Shown here piece after piece: positions 21,930 to 63,685 of a DNA stretch of 64,000 nucleotides. The translations under genes and the position numbers were made by a program. The notes below the pieces were generated by a model, which saw only the letters and a program-made list of their open reading frames with translations, did not search any database and had not been told where the DNA came from. Numbering within the stretch: position 1 is the first letter of the stretch; every line of letters starts with the position of its first letter. The DNA comes from Pseudomonadota bacterium (lineage in GTDB: Bacteria; Desulfobacterota; SM23-61), in NCBI GenBank assembly GCA_018819135.1, contig JAHJQK010000191.1, positions 1 to 64,000 of the forward strand. The letters run 5' to 3'.

Positions 21930-24809
21930 ATGGCTACCGAAAAGATCATCATTCGCGGCGCCCGCGAACATAATCTGAAAAACATCCATGTGGAAATTCC
22001 CCGCAACCAGTTGGTGGTGATCACCGGCCTCTCTGGTTCGGGTAAATCTTCCCTGGCCTTTGACACCATCTATGCCGAGGGCCAGCGGCGTTACGTGGAA
22101 TCCCTTTCCGCCTACGCCCGGCAGTTTCTGGAACAGATGGAGAAGCCCGATGTGGAATCCATCGAGGGGCTTTCTCCGGCTATTTCTATCGAGCAGAAGA
22201 CGAGATCCAAGAACCCCCGCTCCACCGTGGGAACGGTCACCGAGATCCACGATTACTTGCGCCTGCTCTTTGCCCGTATCGGCAAACCCCACTGCCCCCA
22301 GTGTGGCCAAGAGATCAAATCTCAGACCGTCCAGCAGATTGTGGACCAGGTCATGGCCCTGGCACCCGGCACACGGTTACAAATTCTTTCTCCCGTCATT
22401 CGGGGGCGAAAAGGGGAATATCGCAAAGAATTTGAGCACCTGCGCAAGAGCGGTTTTGCCCGGGTCAAAGTGGATGGAATCATCCGGGATCTGAGCGAAG
22501 AGATCATCCTGGACAAAAATAAAAAGCATACCCTCGAGGTCCTGGTGGATCGGCTGGTGGTCAAAGAAAAAGCGGAGAAACGTCTGGCGGATTCGCTGGC
22601 TACGGCTCTTGGCCTCTCGGAAGGGATCGCCAAGGTGGAGATTGTAGGGGGAGAAGAACTGGTCTTCAGCGAAAAATTCGCCTGCGTCGATTGCGGGGTG
22701 AGCCTTCCTGAGATCAGTCCCCGCATGTTCTCCTTCAATAACCCCTATGGAGCCTGCCCCCAATGCGATGGCCTGGGAACGATGATGTATTTCGCCCCGG
22801 ACCTGATCGTACCCAACAATAACCTTTCCATCCGGGAGGGGGCGGTCATTCCCTGGCAGGGGCGCAGTTCCATGCCTTTCCACCAAATGCTCGATTCTCT
22901 GGCCGAACATTACCGGATTGACCTCTATGCCCCTTTCAAGACCCTTTCTCCGCAAGTGCAGAAGGTCATTCTGCATGGGTCCAACGGGGAACAGATCAAA
23001 TTTTATAGCGACCGGGATGACCGGCGGCATTTCTACTTCCGGGAATTCGAAGGGGTCATTCCCCATCTGGAAAAAAGGTACCGGGAGACCGACTCGGAGA
23101 TCATTCGGGAAGAGATGGAACGGTACATGAACATTCGGGCTTGCCCGGGGTGCCAGGGAGCCCGGTTGCGCCAGGAAAGCCTTTTTGTCAAAATCAACGA
23201 GCTGAACATCCACCAGGTTACGGGAAAATCCATCCGGGAAGCCTTAGATTTTTTTTCCAACCTGACCCTTTCCCCGCGGGAACGAGAAATCGGCCGCCGC
23301 ATCTTGAAAGAAATCTCCGAGCGTCTGGGGTTCCTGGTCAATGTCGGCCTGGATTACCTGACCCTGAACCGGTCTTCCGCGACCCTATCCGGCGGGGAAT
23401 CGGAACGTATCCGCCTGGCGACCCAGATTGGCTCGGGCTTGGTCGGAGTACTCTATATCCTGGACGAACCGAGCATCGGTTTACACCAGCGGGACAATAC
23501 CAGACTCCTGGCCACCTTGAAGCGGCTGAGAGACCTGGGCAATACCATCCTAATCGTGGAGCACGACGAAGAAACCATCTTGGCCGCAGATTATGTCCTG
23601 GATCTCGGGCCGGGAGCGGGAGTCAACGGGGGGGAATTGGTATTTACCGGCACGCCGCAGGAATTGATGCAGGCAGAAAATTCTCTTACGGGCAAGTACC
23701 TGTCGGGGAAGCTAAGCATCCCCGTTCCCGCCTCGCGCCGAAAGCCCAAAGGGAAGTTTTTAACTTTAGTCCGGGCCAGCGAAAACAACCTCAAGGATAT
23801 TACCGTAAAATTTCCCCTGGGCCTGTTCACCTGTGTGACCGGAGTCTCCGGCTCCGGTAAGAGCACCCTTGTTTTGGATACTCTGCACCGGGCCTTAGCC
23901 CAGAAGATCTACCATTCCAAAGAAAGACCGGGCAAGATGCAAGATCTTCTGGGGATCTCGGAAGTCGACAAGGTGATAGAAATCGACCAATCTCCCATCG
24001 GGCGCACGCCGCGTTCCAACCCGGCCACATATACGGGAGTCTTCACCTACATCCGGGAACTTTTTGCGCGGCTTCCCGAGTCTCGGGTCCGGGGGTATAC
24101 TCCGGGGCGGTACAGTTTTAACGTCAAAGGCGGGCGTTGCGAAGCCTGCGGGGGCGACGGGATCATCAAGATCGAAATGCATTTCCTGCCTGACGTTTAC
24201 GTGACCTGTGAAGTCTGCCGGGGGAAGCGCTATAATCGAGAAACCCTGGAGGTGCAATACAAGGGAAAAAACATCTGGGATGTTTTGGATATGACCGTGG
24301 ACCAAGCGCTCAAGTTCTTCGAGCCCATTCCCAAAATCCGCGGCAAGCTCCAGACCTTGGCCGATGTGGGCATGGGATATATCAAGCTGGGGCAGCAAGC
24401 GACTACCCTTTCGGGTGGAGAGGCCCAGCGAGTCAAACTTTCCCGGGAACTCTCCAAACGATCTACGGGTAGGAGCGTGTACATTCTGGACGAACCCACC
24501 ACCGGTTTACACTTCGACGATATCCGCAAACTGCTGGAAGTCCTCAATCGTCTGGCCAACACGGGTAACACCGTGATCGTCATCGAGCATAACTTAGAAG
24601 TCATCAAGACCGCCGATTACGTCATCGACCTCGGCCCCGAAGGGGGAGACGCTGGAGGAGAGATTCTGGCCCAAGGAACTCCCGAGGAAGTAGCCAATAT
24701 GCTCCCTTCTTATACGGGCCAGTTTTTGCGGAAGATCTTTGCCCGGGACCAGGCCCGCAGAATGAATCGTTCGGAGTTCGGAGTTCGGAGCCCGGAACTC
24801 AGAAACTAA
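21930..24809 (+). CDS. uvrA: excinuclease ABC subunit UvrA
   Basis: 959 residues. Damage-recognition ATPase of nucleotide excision repair. Two ABC modules are present: Walker [15 protein letters not shown] (33 onward) and [14 protein letters not shown], signatures [12 protein letters not shown] and [12 protein letters not shown], and Walker [13 protein letters not shown] and [12 protein letters not shown]. Zinc-finger cysteines are visible ([36 protein letters not shown]). Start at ATG 21930, six bases inside an upstream TTG. The last 14 residues ([14 protein letters not shown]) are not UvrA-like: they are translation of the family D repeat that follows. Confidence 0.97.
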
Positions 24810-24838
24810 ATACTCCGAACTCATTACTCCGAACTCTT
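24770..24838. repeat. repeat family D between convergent uvrA and rlmB
   Basis: TTCGGAGTTCGGAGTTCGGA and the facing ACTCCGAACTCATTACTCCG form a long imperfect hairpin, which extends into the 3' end of uvrA and up to the rlmB stop. It probably also acts as a bidirectional terminator. A second copy occurs at 29234-29382. Confidence 0.7.
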
Positions 24839-25585
24839 TTTTCCGTTTTTAAGTTGTTGGCGCAGGATTTCGAAGAGGATGATGGCTCCGGCGACGGCTG
24901 CATTCAGAGAAGAAGTTTTTCCTTTCATGGGGATCGAGATGGCATAGTCACATTTTTTTAGGATAAGCGGGCGAATTCCTTTCCCCTCGCTGCCGATGAC
25001 CAGGCCCACGTTCATATCAAATTTCATCTCATAAAGACTTTTTTCTCCGCGGGCATCCGCGCCCACGATCCAGAAATTTTCTTTTTTCAGCTCTTCCAGA
25101 GTGTGGGCTAAGTTAGTGACCCGCACTACCGGGATGTGCGTAGCCGCGCCGGCCGAAACTTTGACTACGGCGGGGGTAACGCCTACCGCCCGGTCCTTGG
25201 GAATGATGATTCCTTTTACGCCGCAGGCTTCGGCCGTCCGAATAAGCGAGCCGAAATTCTGAGGATCTTCAATACTGTCCAGTATGAGAACCAGAACCTG
25301 GCCAGGCGCTGAACGGATCGACGACAATAAATCCTCCCAGGAAGTATATGGCGACTGAGATCGCCAACCAATAACTCCCTGATGGTGGCCGGTCCTTGCC
25401 AGTTGATTTAAAATTTCTCTGGGGCAAACCTGGATGGGGATCTTTTTTTCCTGAGCCAGCCGCCGCAAGGTGCGGAGGGGAAGGCTCTCCCTTCCTTCAG
25501 CCAGCATGACCTTATGCAGAATTTGCCGATCCGCCTTCAAGGCTTCGAGGACCGGGTTGATACCGTAAATGACGTCAGCACTCAT
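24824..25585 (-). CDS. rlmB: 23S rRNA (guanosine-2'-O)-methyltransferase RlmB (TrmH/SpoU family)
   Basis: 253 residues. An N-terminal substrate-binding domain (VIYGINPVLEALKADRQI, HHQGVIGW) is followed by the SPOUT knot: LDSIEDPQNFGSLIRTAEAC (motif 1), GLVIGSEGKGIRPLI (motif 2) and ISIPMKGKTSSLNAAVAGAI (motif 3). RlmB methylates G2251 of 23S rRNA. Start is ATG 25585, with an in-frame TTG six bases earlier rejected. A family A fragment separates it from the rhomboid gene upstream on the same strand. Confidence 0.92.
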   Translation of the reverse strand: MSADVIYGINPVLEALKADRQILHKVMLAEGRESLPLRTLRRLAQEKKIPIQVCPREILNQLARTGHHQGVIGWRSQSPYTSWEDLLSSIRSAPGQVLVLILDSIEDPQNFGSLIRTAEACGVKGIIIPKDRAVGVTPAVVKVSAGAATHIPVVRVTNLAHTLEELKKENFWIVGADARGEKSLYEMKFDMNVGLVIGSEGKGIRPLILKKCDYAISIPMKGKTSSLNAAVAGAIILFEILRQQLKNGKKSSE

Positions 25586-29233: not shown

Positions 29234-29382
29234 AATTCGAATTCTGAATGCGGAATGCAGAATGAGAAAAAATTCAGAGTAATGAGTTCGGAGTTTAGAG
29301 TTCGGAGATTAAAATCAACGCTCCGAACTCCGAACTAATTACTCCGAACAATTCATTCCCCATTCCGCAATTCCTGATTCCG
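29234..29382. repeat. repeat family D, second copy (nested hairpins)
   Basis: Outer arms CGAATTCTGAATGCGGAATG and CATTCCGCAATTCCTGATTC enclose inner arms GTTCGGAGTTTAGAGTTCGG and CGCTCCGAACTCCGAACT. The whole gap between the ferredoxin and cysteine desulfurase genes is this structure. The inner part matches the uvrA-rlmB repeat at 24770. Confidence 0.7.
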
Positions 29383-58915: not shown

Positions 58916-59127
58916 ATTAACCGAGCGCCGAGTGCTAAGCGCCGGGCGTACGCAGCAAGTTGAAAAAAGAATTGACAACCGTTTGCCAAGATGTGAATAT
59001 GTATAAGCATCCAGCAATCAGCTCTCAGCAACCAGCAAATTAATCAAAGGGCATTTTTTCAATTCAAGGCATTCTTACTTATTGGCTGAAAGCTTTTTTT
59101 AAAGGAGGGCGCAAAAAACTTTTTAAC

Positions 59128-59412
59128 ATAGGCCAACCGGGAAGGGAAGGTGGTGCGAGACCACCGCTGCCCCGCAACTGTGATCGGAACGAAACCCACA
59201 AGAAACGAAATAATAGGCAATAGGCGATAGGCAATAGGTGATGGGAAAAAGAAAAAATTTTGTATTTGATGGTAACCCATAGCCTAAAGCCTCGAACCTA
59301 TAGCCTGTTTTTTACGTTTCAGCCACTGGACACTGTCCGGGAAGGCGTGGGGAGTTCGCCATAGGACAGGCGGACAAGTAGGAAGCCGTAAGCCAGGAAA
59401 CCTGCCCGACTT
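59128..59412 (+). promoter_or_regulatory. cobalamin (adenosylcobalamin-type) riboswitch
   Basis: Conserved blocks appear in order: AACCGGGAAGGGAAGGTG, CGAGACCACCGCTGCCCCGC-AACTGTGA, GCCACTGGACAC, CCGGGAAGGCG and the B12 box AAGCCAGGAAACCTGCC (59389 onward). Spacing is normal except between AACTGTGA and GCCACTG. There a stem GAAACG/CGTTTC (59202-59207, 59315-59320) is extended by an inserted inverted repeat of about 98 bases. An intrinsic terminator follows at 59468, so B12 binding should stop transcription ahead of the cob-btu operon. Confidence 0.92.
59211..59308. repeat. inverted repeat (family G) inserted in the riboswitch
   Basis: TAATAGGCAATAGGCGATAG ... GGTGATGGG on the left faces CCCATAGCCTAAAGCCTCGA ... 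ACCTATAGCCTG on the right. The two sides pair as an elongated hairpin with internal direct repeats of ATAGGC. It sits at the top of a peripheral stem, leaving the conserved core intact. Confidence 0.7.
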
Positions 59413-59467
59413 GATTAACATTCTCGACCCTTCCGAGGGGAAGGTGGGCAGAGAATCGCAACGATTT

Positions 59468-59508
59468 AAAACCCCAACTTTCTCCCTTAGAAGGTTGGGG
59501 TTTTTTAT
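59468..59508 (+). terminator. intrinsic terminator of the cobalamin riboswitch
   Basis: ACCCCAACTTTCT, a short loop, AGAAGGTTGGGG and then TTTTTT: a strong hairpin with nine pairs next to the U-tract plus three more (TCT/AGA), placed 55 bases after the B12 box. Confidence 0.88.
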
Positions 59509-59515
59509 TTTATTT

Positions 59516-59653
59516 GGCCACAGAGAGCACAGAGAAGGATAAAGAATAAAAAATTTCGGGTTACGGGTTAAAATCTTTTTGCAGGCCATAAAATATTCTT
59601 TATCTGAATTTTATTTATATTTAAAACTCTGTGTTCTCTGTGACCTCTGTGGC
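59516..59653. repeat. repeat family B, inverted pair in front of cobU
   Basis: Left arm GGCCACAGAGAGCACAGAGA (from 59516) directly after the terminator, and right arm ACTCTGTGTTCTCTGTGACC plus TCTGTGGC (59626-59653), ending 11 bases before the cobU ATG. Confidence 0.8.
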
Positions 59654-59664
59654 AAAAGGGTTTT

Positions 59665-60189
59665 ATGAATAAAAAAATCATTTTTATTACGGGTGGGGCA
59701 CGGAGCGGGAAGAGCCACTTCGCTCAGGAACTGGCCTCAAAATTCCCCGGGCCCAAAGCATACCTGGCCACGGCCCAGCCTCTGGATAAAGAGATGGTCG
59801 AACGAATCCGCAGGCATAAACATATCCGGCCAAAAGATTGGCAGACCCTGGAAGAGCCGTTCCGGGTGGCGGAGGCGATTAGGAAAAACGGAGATCGTTT
59901 CAGCCTTATCCTTCTCGATTGCCTTACCCTCTGGATCTCCAACTTCATGATGGCAGATTGGAGTGAGGAGAAGATCCTCGCGGAAGCGGATCGATTGCTG
60001 AAAGTCTGCCGGGGTACGAAGTGCTCTTTCATCCTGGTGGGCAATGAAGTGGGGATGGGTATCGTTCCCGATAACCCCCAAGCCAGAACTTTTCGCGACT
60101 TGAGTGGGCTGGTTCAGCAAAAAATAGTCCGGGAAGCGGACGAGGTTTATTTTATGGTTTGCGGACTTCCTCAGAAAATAAAGCCGTAG
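59665..60189 (+). CDS. cobU: adenosylcobinamide kinase / adenosylcobinamide-phosphate guanylyltransferase
   Basis: 174 residues. P-loop ITGGARSGKSHFAQELA, then YLATAQPLDKEMVERIRRHK (the RRHxxxR-type segment with the active-site His), W-x-T-x-EEP (DWQTLEEPF), LLDCLTLWISNFM and GNEVGMGIVPDNPQAR. It phosphorylates adenosylcobinamide and then attaches GMP, activating it for the nucleotide loop. First gene of the riboswitch operon. Its stop TAG lies within the palindrome at 60186-60212. Confidence 0.94.
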   Translation: MNKKIIFITGGARSGKSHFAQELASKFPGPKAYLATAQPLDKEMVERIRRHKHIRPKDWQTLEEPFRVAEAIRKNGDRFSLILLDCLTLWISNFMMADWSEEKILAEADRLLKVCRGTKCSFILVGNEVGMGIVPDNPQARTFRDLSGLVQQKIVREADEVYFMVCGLPQKIKP

Positions 60190-60243: not shown

Positions 60244-61305
60244 ATGGAAACAGATTTAAAGAAAAGGCTCTCTTCAATTCGACCGATAAAAGAAGAATTT
60301 CTTACCCTCGCCCAGGCCAAGCTGGATAGGCTGACCAAACCCCAGGGCAGCCTGGGTCAACTCGAAGAGATGGCCAAAAAGTACGTGGCCATCGTTGAGA
60401 ATCTAAACCCCAGGATTGAGAAAAAGATTATTTATGTTTTTGCCGGCGATCATGGCGTTGTGGCTGAAAGCGTCAGCGCGTATCCCAAAGAAGTAACTCC
60501 TCAAATGGTTTACAACTTCCTGCGCGGAGGAGCTGGCATTAACGTTCTGGCGCGTCATGCAGGAGTTAGTGTGGTTGTGGTGGACATCGGGGTGGACCAT
60601 GAGTTTGAACCCAGGGAGGGGCTATTGGTCCGTAAAGTTTCCCGGGGGACAGGAAACATCATCTGCGGTCCGGCCATGTCCAGGGACCAGGCATTGCAGG
60701 CCCTATTGGTGGGTTTAGAGATGGCCGATCACGCTAAGGAACAAAAAGCTGATTTGGTAGGCACTGGCGACATGGGGATCGGCAACACCACTCCCAGTAG
60801 CGCCATCCTGGCTGCCCTCACAGGCATGCCGGTGAAAGAGGTGACTCATCGTGGAACAGGAATAGACGATGCTGCCCTGGCGCGCAAAATTCAGGTTATC
60901 GAGAGGGCCATTGCCTTCAACAGACCCGACCCGAAGGATCCACTGGACGTCCTGGCCAAAGTGGGGGGGTTTGAGATTGCCGGAATTGCCGGATTGATTA
61001 TCGGGTGTGCCTGCCACCGAATTCCTGTCGTGGTGGACGGCTTTATCTCGACCGCCGGCGCGATGATTGCGGTAGGTTTGAACCCGGAGATAAAAGGGTA
61101 TCTTTTTGCCTCTCATCAGTCCGTTGAGGTGGGGCATAAGTTCATGTGGGAGTACATCGGCCAGAAGCCTATCCTGAACCTCTCCATGCGGCTGGGCGAG
61201 GGGACGGGCGCAGCCTTGGCCATGTCCATGATCGAAGCGGCGGTAAAAGTAATGAATGAAATGGCCACTTTTTCCGAAGCAGGAGTATCGGAAGCAAAGG
61301 AATGA
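60244..61305 (+). CDS. cobT: nicotinate-nucleotide-dimethylbenzimidazole phosphoribosyltransferase
   Basis: 353 residues. Forms alpha-ribazole phosphate, the lower-ligand nucleotide. Seen: [86 protein letters not shown]-like [20 protein letters not shown] and, near the end, [17 protein letters not shown] with the catalytic Glu. Second gene of the operon, 54 bases after cobU across the palindrome; it overlaps cobS by four bases. Confidence 0.95.
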
Positions 61306-62057
61306 AAAGTTTCTTTCTGGCCTGGCAATTTTTAACCATCCTCCCCGGGAGGAAGAGCGATCAGGAAATAAATCCCCGGCTCTTGGGTCGATCTATGGCT
61401 TTTTACCCGGTGATCGGGCTTCTCCTGGGGCTGATTCTCTGGGCGGCCCACTGGGCCTTTTCCTTAGCGTTCCCCCGCACCCTCGCGGATGGACTGATCG
61501 TCCTGCTTCTTGTAATCCTCACCGGCGCTTTCCACCTGGATGGGCTAGCCGATACCTGCGATGGGCTGGTCTCCGGAAAGACCCCCGAAGAAAGACTGAA
61601 GATCATGAAAGACCACCGGGTGGGGACTTTTGGGGTCGTTGGTTTGATTTTGATTTTGGGAATGAAATTCTTAGCCCTCGATTCTTTACCTGACCCAGCT
61701 GTAGGAAGGACTTTGTTGGTGGCTTTGATTCTCAGCCGCTGGTCCATGGTGTCATTAACCTACTGGGCTCCTTATGCCCGCCGGGAAGGTGGCTTGGGTC
61801 TTCCCTTTAAGGAAAATCTGACTACAAGAGAAATGGTCGTGGCCGCTGCCACTTCCTTAGTTCTCAGCTTTTTCTTCTACCGTTTTTGGGGGATGATCCT
61901 GTGGCTGGTGGTAGGGGTTTTTACTCTTCTCTTCCAAAAATTCTTTGAGAATAAGATCGGGGGCATCACTGGCGATGTTCTTGGCGCGGTGAATGAGGCC
62001 AATGAAGTTCTGGTTTTGATTTTGATGTCCGGGATGTTGTATTGGCATCCATCTTGA
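61302..62057 (+). CDS. cobS: adenosylcobinamide-GDP ribazoletransferase (cobalamin synthase)
   Basis: 251 residues, polytopic inner-membrane enzyme that joins alpha-ribazole (phosphate) to adenosyl-GDP-cobinamide. Hallmarks: [12 protein letters not shown] near the start, [20 protein letters not shown] (acidic, metal-binding), [35 protein letters not shown] and [20 protein letters not shown] near the end. ATGA overlap with cobT. It is followed by a fragment of repeat family C at 62061-62077. Confidence 0.95.
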
Positions 62058-62091: not shown

Positions 62092-62706
62092 ATGAAAGAG
62101 ACTAAAACAATGGATCCTGAACGAACCCGAATTTATCTGGCCCGCCACGGAGAAGTGGTCAACCACGGAGTTTATAACGGGCAGACCGACGTTGACATTA
62201 CCCCCACCGGTCTGAAGCAAATGGAGCGCCTGAGCGATCTTTTAAAAGATAAAAATCTCTCTGCGGTTTATTGCAGCGACCTCCGGCGTACCCAAAAAGG
62301 AGCTGAGATCATCGCCAACACGCACCGTCTTGAACCCCAAAGCTTTCCCCATTTCCGGGAGATGCATTTCGGCCGCTGGCAGGGACTGAATTATCAGGGG
62401 GTCTTGGAAAAATACCCTGCGGACATTCCCCAGTGGATCAACAACCTGGAAACCTTTCGCATTCCCGCCGGAGAGAGCATAATGGATATCCATGATCGGG
62501 CCATCCCCAAATTGAAGGAGTTGGTCGAGTTCCACCGGGGCCAGGAGTTCGCCTTGGTTTGCCATGGCGCGCTGAACCGGGTAATTCTGGCCGAGGCCCT
62601 TCATTTATCCTTCGCTCACCTTCTGCGGATCGAGCAGGATTACGGGTGCCTGAACATCATTGAGTATACCCTCTCGGGGACGCTGGTGAAATTAATCAAT
62701 GGGTAA
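62092..62706 (+). CDS. cobC: histidine phosphatase, probable alpha-ribazole phosphatase
   Basis: 204 residues. Phosphoglycerate-mutase-like fold with YLARHGEVVNHGVYNGQTDV (catalytic RHGE), YCSDLRRTQKGAEIIA, FREMHFGRWQGL and FALVCHGALNRVILAEAL (second His). In this operon it most plausibly dephosphorylates alpha-ribazole phosphate or adenosylcobalamin phosphate, though the fold alone does not prove it. ATG 62092, with another possible start at 62110. It overlaps the btuF frame by eight bases. Confidence 0.88.
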   Translation: MKETKTMDPERTRIYLARHGEVVNHGVYNGQTDVDITPTGLKQMERLSDLLKDKNLSAVYCSDLRRTQKGAEIIANTHRLEPQSFPHFREMHFGRWQGLNYQGVLEKYPADIPQWINNLETFRIPAGESIMDIHDRAIPKLKELVEFHRGQEFALVCHGALNRVILAEALHLSFAHLLRIEQDYGCLNIIEYTLSGTLVKLING

Positions 62707-63685
62707 AAAGACAAAGGCGGATTATGAATTACGGATTGGGGCTTCGGTAGGGGCACGCTGCAGCGTGCCCCTACATCTTTCCACGCTCCTCATTGGTCTT
62801 CTGTTGTTCATCAGCAGCAATGTTTATGGGGCTACCTTCACCGATGAGGTAGGGCGAACGCTGGAAGTGAAAGCTCCCCCCCGGCGCATCATCTCCGTGG
62901 CCCCGAGCGTCACCGAGATGCTTTTCGCCGTGGGCCTGGAGGACAAAATTGTTGGCGTCAGCACGCACTGCAATTATCCACCCGGGGCTATGAAAAAAGA
63001 GCAGATCGGCGGGTATATCACGCCTTCCCTGGAAAAAATTATTTCCTTGAAGCCCGACTTAGTCATCGGGACCGCTGACGGGGAATTGAAGCCTTTCGTC
63101 AACAAAATGGCCGGGTTGGGAATTCCGGTGTACATCATCAACCCCAGGAACGTATCTGGGGTGATGGCTTCCATCCAGAATATCGGAGAAATAACCTTCA
63201 GCCAGGCTGCTGCCAAACGCCTGGTTGCTTCCATGCAAGAGAAGACACAAACCATCCAGGATAAAATAAAGGGGCGGCCTCTGTTGCGGGTACTGCACGT
63301 CATGGCTTTCGATCCTTTGATCAGCTCGGGAAAAGGAACGTTTGTGGATAATTTGATCCGCATGGCCGGCGGCGTCAATATTGCCGAGGCTGCCCAGGGG
63401 AGTTATCCCCGGTTAAGCATGGAAGAAGTGATCCTGCAGGATCCGGAGGTCATTATCCTTTCTTCCATGAAGTCGCGAGATCCTCTGACGGAGCAGAAAC
63501 AGTGGTGGGCCAGATGGAAAGAGATTTCGGCTGTGCGTACCCGCAGGATCCACGTTATCGATGCCGACTTGATCCACCGCCCATCGCCGAGAATCGTAGA
63601 AGGTCTGGAGGAGACGGCTAAGGCTATTCACCCCGAAGCATTTATCAAAGGGTTCAAGGGGTCAAGGGTCCCAGGGGCCAAGTGA
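62699..63685 (+). CDS. btuF: cobalamin/corrinoid ABC transporter substrate-binding protein
   Basis: 328 residues from the ATG at 62699. A signal-peptide core LLIGLLLFISSNVYGA is followed by the BtuF/FecB fold: RRIISVAPSVTEMLFAVGLE, VGVSTHCNYPPGA, LKPDLVIGTADGELKPF, FVDNLIRMAGGVNIAEAAQG and PRPSPRIVEGLEETAKAIHP-like end. The first about 20 residues are odd for a signal peptide because a 28-base palindrome (62747-62774) is translated (GASVGARCSVPL). A GTG at 62765, inside the palindrome, would give a conventional MPLHLSTLLIGLLLF start. The last residues (GFKGSRVPGAK) come from repeat family F. Confidence 0.9.
   Translation: MGKKTKADYELRIGASVGARCSVPLHLSTLLIGLLLFISSNVYGATFTDEVGRTLEVKAPPRRIISVAPSVTEMLFAVGLEDKIVGVSTHCNYPPGAMKKEQIGGYITPSLEKIISLKPDLVIGTADGELKPFVNKMAGLGIPVYIINPRNVSGVMASIQNIGEITFSQAAAKRLVASMQEKTQTIQDKIKGRPLLRVLHVMAFDPLISSGKGTFVDNLIRMAGGVNIAEAAQGSYPRLSMEEVILQDPEVIILSSMKSRDPLTEQKQWWARWKEISAVRTRRIHVIDADLIHRPSPRIVEGLEETAKAIHPEAFIKGFKGSRVPGAK
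62747..62774. repeat. 28-bp perfect palindrome (family E) within the btuF 5' end
   Basis: GTAGGGGCACGCTG followed by its exact complement CAGCGTGCCCCTAC. It shares GTAGGGGC/GCCCCTAC ends with the palindrome at 60186. It is in the presumed coding region just before the hydrophobic signal core. Confidence 0.88.

Follow-up and report, generated by a model that had tools for sequence, protein, structure and literature searches.

The window analyzed here is a stretch of 64,000 nt (positions 1 to 64,000 of contig JAHJQK010000191.1, assembly GCA_018819135.1) from a bacterium placed by GTDB in the SM23-61 lineage of the Desulfobacterota. A cobalamin riboswitch in front of its cobU gene carries a hairpin arm of degenerate 7-nt repeats (heptads) in the P6 accessory region. 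Comparison with related riboswitches revealed arms of similar length and differing heptads at a common position, and an abrupt replacement of the arm inside nearly identical flanks. Probably the P6 stem is permissive, accepting and exchanging self-pairing heptad hairpins, and the sensor itself is unchanged.

The hairpin arm and its counterparts in relatives

A preliminary description of this DNA had proposed a B12 riboswitch at 59128-59412 with all conserved blocks present. The Rfam Cobalamin model recovered it within slightly wider limits and above the cut-off (Table 1), and the named blocks were found. The insert is located between CCCAC and GCCACTGG of the riboswitch. As supposed in that description, it prolongs a peripheral stem: the P6 accessory region is extended by a hairpin of 119 nt, once the GAAACG/CGTTTC closing stem is included. 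The inner part, 59211-59308, folds with -33.2 kcal/mol (z = -4.9 against dinucleotide shuffles). Self-comparison of the insert gave z = 7.0 at lag 7, and all remaining lags in the range from 4 to 10 stayed at or below 1.5; the repeat unit is therefore a heptad, ATAGGCN. The 5′ arm contains five tandem copies (ATAGGCN/ATAGGTN/ATGGG) which pair with the 3′ arm, so that degenerate 7-nt repeats build both sides of a stem within a structured RNA.

The insert had also been thought to be tolerated because it lies outside the core, and the folding predictions, which are thermodynamic secondary structures without tertiary contacts, agree with this. The same 49 of 49 core pairs are predicted with and without the insert and no insert-core pairs arise, as against an average of 9.1 for shuffled inserts. 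The computations thus establish both the periodicity of the arm and a predicted insulation of the core. For ten riboswitches of the class the mean number of predicted insert-core pairs was 2.2 with the native arms, 18 with shuffled arms and 3.4 with arms swapped between riboswitches; the native cobU arms of genomes G003 and G006 still reached 6.7 and 9.6, respectively.

The class comprises eight genomes, including that of the window (G000); named members reached through cobU include Deltaproteobacteria bacterium SM23_61 and a Syntrophaceae metagenome-assembled genome. Searches at the order and class level did not enlarge the family's set of eight. All ten class riboswitches that are complete and bear an insert have an arm of 89-122 nt at exactly the same point; six of them precede cobU and four a TonB-receptor gene (named btuB from sequence resemblance). 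Two further copies in G000 stand outside this set, a btuB-type riboswitch with a heptad arm whose 3′ half was not delimited (L032) and a compact one (L033). The motifs ATAGGCN, AGGTNAN, AGTGTNA, TTTCGAG, GAGCTAN and GCGTAAG were found among the class riboswitches, i.e., differing repeat motifs alternate at one site among relatives. The lag-7 z exceeded 2.5 in 11 of 14 inserts, a set that includes L032 and three inserts from more distant genomes and in which the UWMA-0184 insert was taken too long; the insert of Nitrospirae GWC2_42_7 has a period of 6. Since hairpins, usually of a different heptad, occur at the same point in all ten, the arm is probably old and its sequence has been replaced.

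Table 1. Features of the riboswitch and its operon in the window.
Feature	Position	Strand	Evidence
Cobalamin riboswitch aptamer (RF00174)	59113..59423	+	cmscan 52.3 bits, cut-off 31.5; core columns kept in ten relatives
Heptad-repeat hairpin extending the P6 accessory region, with GAAACG/CGTTTC closing stem	59202..59320	+	fold, z-score, lag-7, relatives
5′ arm: tandem ATAGGCN heptads	59213..59245	+	sequence; dispersed genome matches
3′ arm: degenerate complementary heptads CCCATAG CCTAAAG CCTCGAA CCTATAG CCTG	59277..59308	+	sequence, fold
Intrinsic terminator hairpin with T-run, likely expression platform	59468..59504	+	terminator scan, 16 pairs
cobU, first gene of the regulated operon	59665..60189	+	Pfam CobU 5e-61
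cobT	60244..61305	+	Pfam PF02277 (DBI_PRT), 1e-140
cobS	61302..62057	+	Pfam CobS 4e-57
cobC-like histidine phosphatase	62092..62706	+	Pfam His_Phos_1 2e-51
btuF-like periplasmic binding protein	62699..63685	+	Pfam Peripla_BP_2 3e-36

Replacement of the arm and its possible origin

Pairwise comparisons within the class separate the history of the arm from that of its flanks. Between the btuB riboswitches of G002 and G003 the flanks are 97% and 98% identical and the arms 33%, compared with a mean of 28% and a maximum of 40% for shuffled inserts. The cobU riboswitches of G000 and G004 have flanks with 85% and 99% identity (99% in the 3′ flank) and arms with 25%. Moreover, the cobU arm of G004 is 86-88% identical (88% over 100 nt) to the btuB arm of G001, a member of another genus, which is far above the identity of any dispersed copy. 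With unrelated flanks on both, this suggests that an arm was transferred from the riboswitch of one gene to that of another. AGGY-type heptads and similar 3′ ends unite the cobU arms of G000, G002, G003, G005 and G006, suggesting one old cobU arm altered by gain and loss of units and replaced wholesale in G004.

The insert had further been described as one copy of a dispersed repeat, and the genome search bears this out. The pattern CAATAGGCNATAGGCNATAGG, with up to three mismatches allowed, gave 107 matches in the 4.4-Mb genome of the window (overlapping windows within one array being counted individually) and none for the reversed control. In four relatives 39-72 matches were obtained, and nearly none in three. 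The corresponding count for AGGTNAN was uninformative, the motif being too degenerate and the control as high as the signal. A 0.46-Mb sample of G000 contained 31 period-7 tandem arrays compared with one after shuffling, and one, four and eight arrays with periods of 5, 6 and 8; this sample includes contigs picked for holding repeats, which biases the absolute density. In G002, sampled mostly without repeat-based choice, 35 period-7 arrays were found against none. The heptad arrays comprise many motifs, often form two complementary arms and are situated between genes in 43 of 50 cases, at a coding fraction of 0.83. Heptad hairpins with a GGAGTTC motif also occur at 24760-24843 and 29246-29373 of the window, and in G002 a 250-nt array of CCCATTG heptads lies within an open reading frame (C6:5021-5268, L149).

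The distribution beyond the class is patchy. A significant period-7 signal was detected in eight of the ten class riboswitches, in the single one from UWMA-0184 and in none of 51 others in the sample of the own phylum. Within a Nitrospirota group, a label resting on its centre genome (L048), seven of 20 long riboswitches and none of 22 high-scoring ones carried the signal, and the arm is situated in a different peripheral stem, between GCCACTG and GGGAAGG. Sampling was non-random: the phylum set combines the best-scoring loci with loci from 22 genomes of mostly low score, and the 20 Nitrospirota loci were picked by length. By eye, the UWMA-0184 riboswitch (L181/L274) seems to have heptad arms at two peripheral sites, and one arm of the Nitrospirota group (L325) shows a period of 9 instead of 7. 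Rfam scans of 280 kb of G000 and G002 detected no other riboswitch class that could be compared.

On these grounds we propose that the P6 accessory region of this class-level lineage is an old arm whose length is maintained. The arm would in every case be a hairpin complementary to itself, in most instances one of degenerate heptads, taken from a pool of such hairpins that lie between genes throughout the genome. It would be exchanged or rewritten by three possible routes: slippage may duplicate or delete units, one arm may be copied onto the other at the palindrome, and now and then recombination with another copy may bring in an entire hairpin. Any sequence that self-pairs appears to be retained by selection, since self-pairing would insulate the aptamer core against misfolding. 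The main role of the arm is thus more likely architectural or tolerated than a new ligand-sensing function.

Several observations weigh against this proposal. All class genomes are draft assemblies, most or all of them derived from metagenomes. The inserts of G004 and G001 have a mixed 6/7 spacing, and their lag-7 z reaches no more than 1.6 and 1.1. The heptads GAGCTAN, TTTCGGG, GCGTAAG and AGTGTNA are rare in the sampled DNA of their own genomes; a dispersed donor pool is therefore clear for ATAGGCN only, and partly for others. Finally, a clean empty site with a target duplication was not seen, hence insertion is not demonstrated.

The best surviving alternative, which we nevertheless judge unlikely, is an ordinary P6 accessory stem that drifts neutrally and builds its repeats by local slippage without any import. 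It would account for the cobU inserts of G002 and G003, which appear alignable in part (56%) with gains and losses of units. It does not explain wholly unrelated inserts within near-identical flanks, near-identical inserts in non-orthologous riboswitches, or a heptad periodicity that none of the 51 other riboswitches sampled from the phylum shows. The preliminary description had held that unrelated inserts of equal length in orthologous riboswitches would reveal an ordinary variable stem. Unrelated inserts of similar length do occur at this place in orthologs, but they are mostly heptad hairpins themselves, and for this reason the site does not behave as an ordinary drifting stem.

A further idea, to be regarded as quite doubtful, would treat the heptad hairpins as a self-propagating class of elements in several phyla. 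A dedicated or host-enzyme mechanism would target or rewrite hairpin arms time and again, defined sockets in structured RNAs among them; riboswitch arms would then be cassettes exchanged between riboswitches.

Very improbable, in our estimation, is the recent transposition suggested originally, in which a mobile ATAGGC-family repeat similar to a miniature inverted-repeat transposable element or a repetitive extragenic palindromic element inserted into the riboswitch. The dispersal of this family in its own genome fits such an event, as does the presence or absence of intergenic heptad elements between species. In the syntenic segment around btuB of G002 and G003, several heptad and CACAGAG-type elements occur in one species while the other lacks them or has a reduced or different version; the junctions there are unclean and a target duplication was not recognized, therefore insertion and deletion cannot be distinguished in this segment. 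At the riboswitch itself, neither a target duplication nor an empty site was found, and the arm at the same site in every complete insert-bearing relative of the class largely refutes a one-off move. Moreover, the cobU heptads of G002, G003, G005 and G006 are ATAGGC-like (AGGT type) and the arms share the GCCTG/ACCTG-TTTTT end, suggesting an old arm.

The least probable view is that the hairpin and the T-run downstream of it (GTTTTTTACG) act as a pause site or early terminator which times co-transcriptional folding, for although the cobU riboswitches of G000, G002, G003, G005 and G006 have five or six T behind a long stem, the T-run is missing in G004 and G001 and the insert hairpin did not come up in the terminator scan.

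Operon, expression platform and neighboring repeats

Judged by its sequence, the element is a normal adenosylcobalamin-type riboswitch which presumably controls a cobU-cobT-cobS-cobC-btuF operon; in line with its assignment to RF00174, genes of B12 synthesis and transport lie downstream (cobU-cobT-cobS, identified by Pfam). The scan for intrinsic terminators found one hairpin, compared with 1.3 expected in shuffled sequences, which makes it weak as a lone consensus match. The hairpin is the likely expression platform because G002, G004, G005 and G006 retain both its stem and the T-run.

Further repeats and extra segments surround the arm. Within the riboswitch, a second extra segment of about 23 nt (GTTCGCC..GGCGGAC, 59347-59369) is restricted to the four genomes that make up the own genus. 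An AGCTGA/CAGC heptad hairpin at 59009-59090, about 40 nt upstream of the riboswitch, has a motif that is constant in the genus, unlike the riboswitch arm. Between the terminator and cobU, an inverted repeat of CACAGAG nonads (period 9; 59516-59655) differs in the relatives, and the family to which it belongs is dispersed (19 clusters against none in the control, in 0.46 Mb).

Comparison with known systems

The variable arms of structured RNAs are usually viewed as filler that drifts. In the present case a whole arm has been replaced between flanks of 97-98% identity, and one hairpin appears to have been passed between the riboswitches of different genes. The origin of peripheral RNA domains thereby becomes directly testable, with pairs of close species serving as states before and after the change.

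As far as the accessible parts of the sources go, riboswitches accommodate long inserted stem-loops at particular sites (PMC2258182) and a swap of the P6 accessory region can alter corrinoid selectivity (PMC9600662); these parts, which deal with variable insertions and P6 of adenosylcobalamin riboswitches, describe neither heptad repeats nor an abrupt replacement of stems. Our literature search, with subscription journals mostly outside its reach, found no description of heptad repeats in riboswitches. Heptameric intergenic repeats of Xanthomonas and Nostoc are over-represented 7-nt tandem repeats that vary between close relatives (PMC4692102). They form G-quadruplexes, whereas the repeats described here are degenerate and form two-armed hairpins.

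Short tandemly repeated repetitive (STRR) heptamers have reportedly been described by Vioque in 1997 within the RNase P RNA of heterocyst-forming cyanobacteria. The likeness lies in short tandem repeats within a structured RNA; the RNase P RNA of our class, in contrast, has no such insert (361-373 nt, compared with a model of 367 positions).

The closest behavioral match is stem P6b of the group I intron in trnL, the tRNA-Leu(UAA) gene, of Nostoc, which always consists of one of two heptads, TDNGATT or NNTGAGT, and shows indels of units and repeated shifts between the motif classes (PMC4476775). Both are peripheral stems of structured RNAs made of 7-nt repeats whose motif changes. However, the host here is a riboswitch in genomes of deltaproteobacterial type, not a cyanobacterial trnL intron or RNase P RNA; there are many motifs instead of two, the lineages are Desulfobacterota-type and Nitrospirota bacteria, and the replacement can be seen inside 97-98% identical flanks. 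The arm works like the trnL P6b and STRR kind of stem and is not a member of those families, and the heptad-stem phenomenon of cyanobacteria extends to riboswitches in two other lineages.
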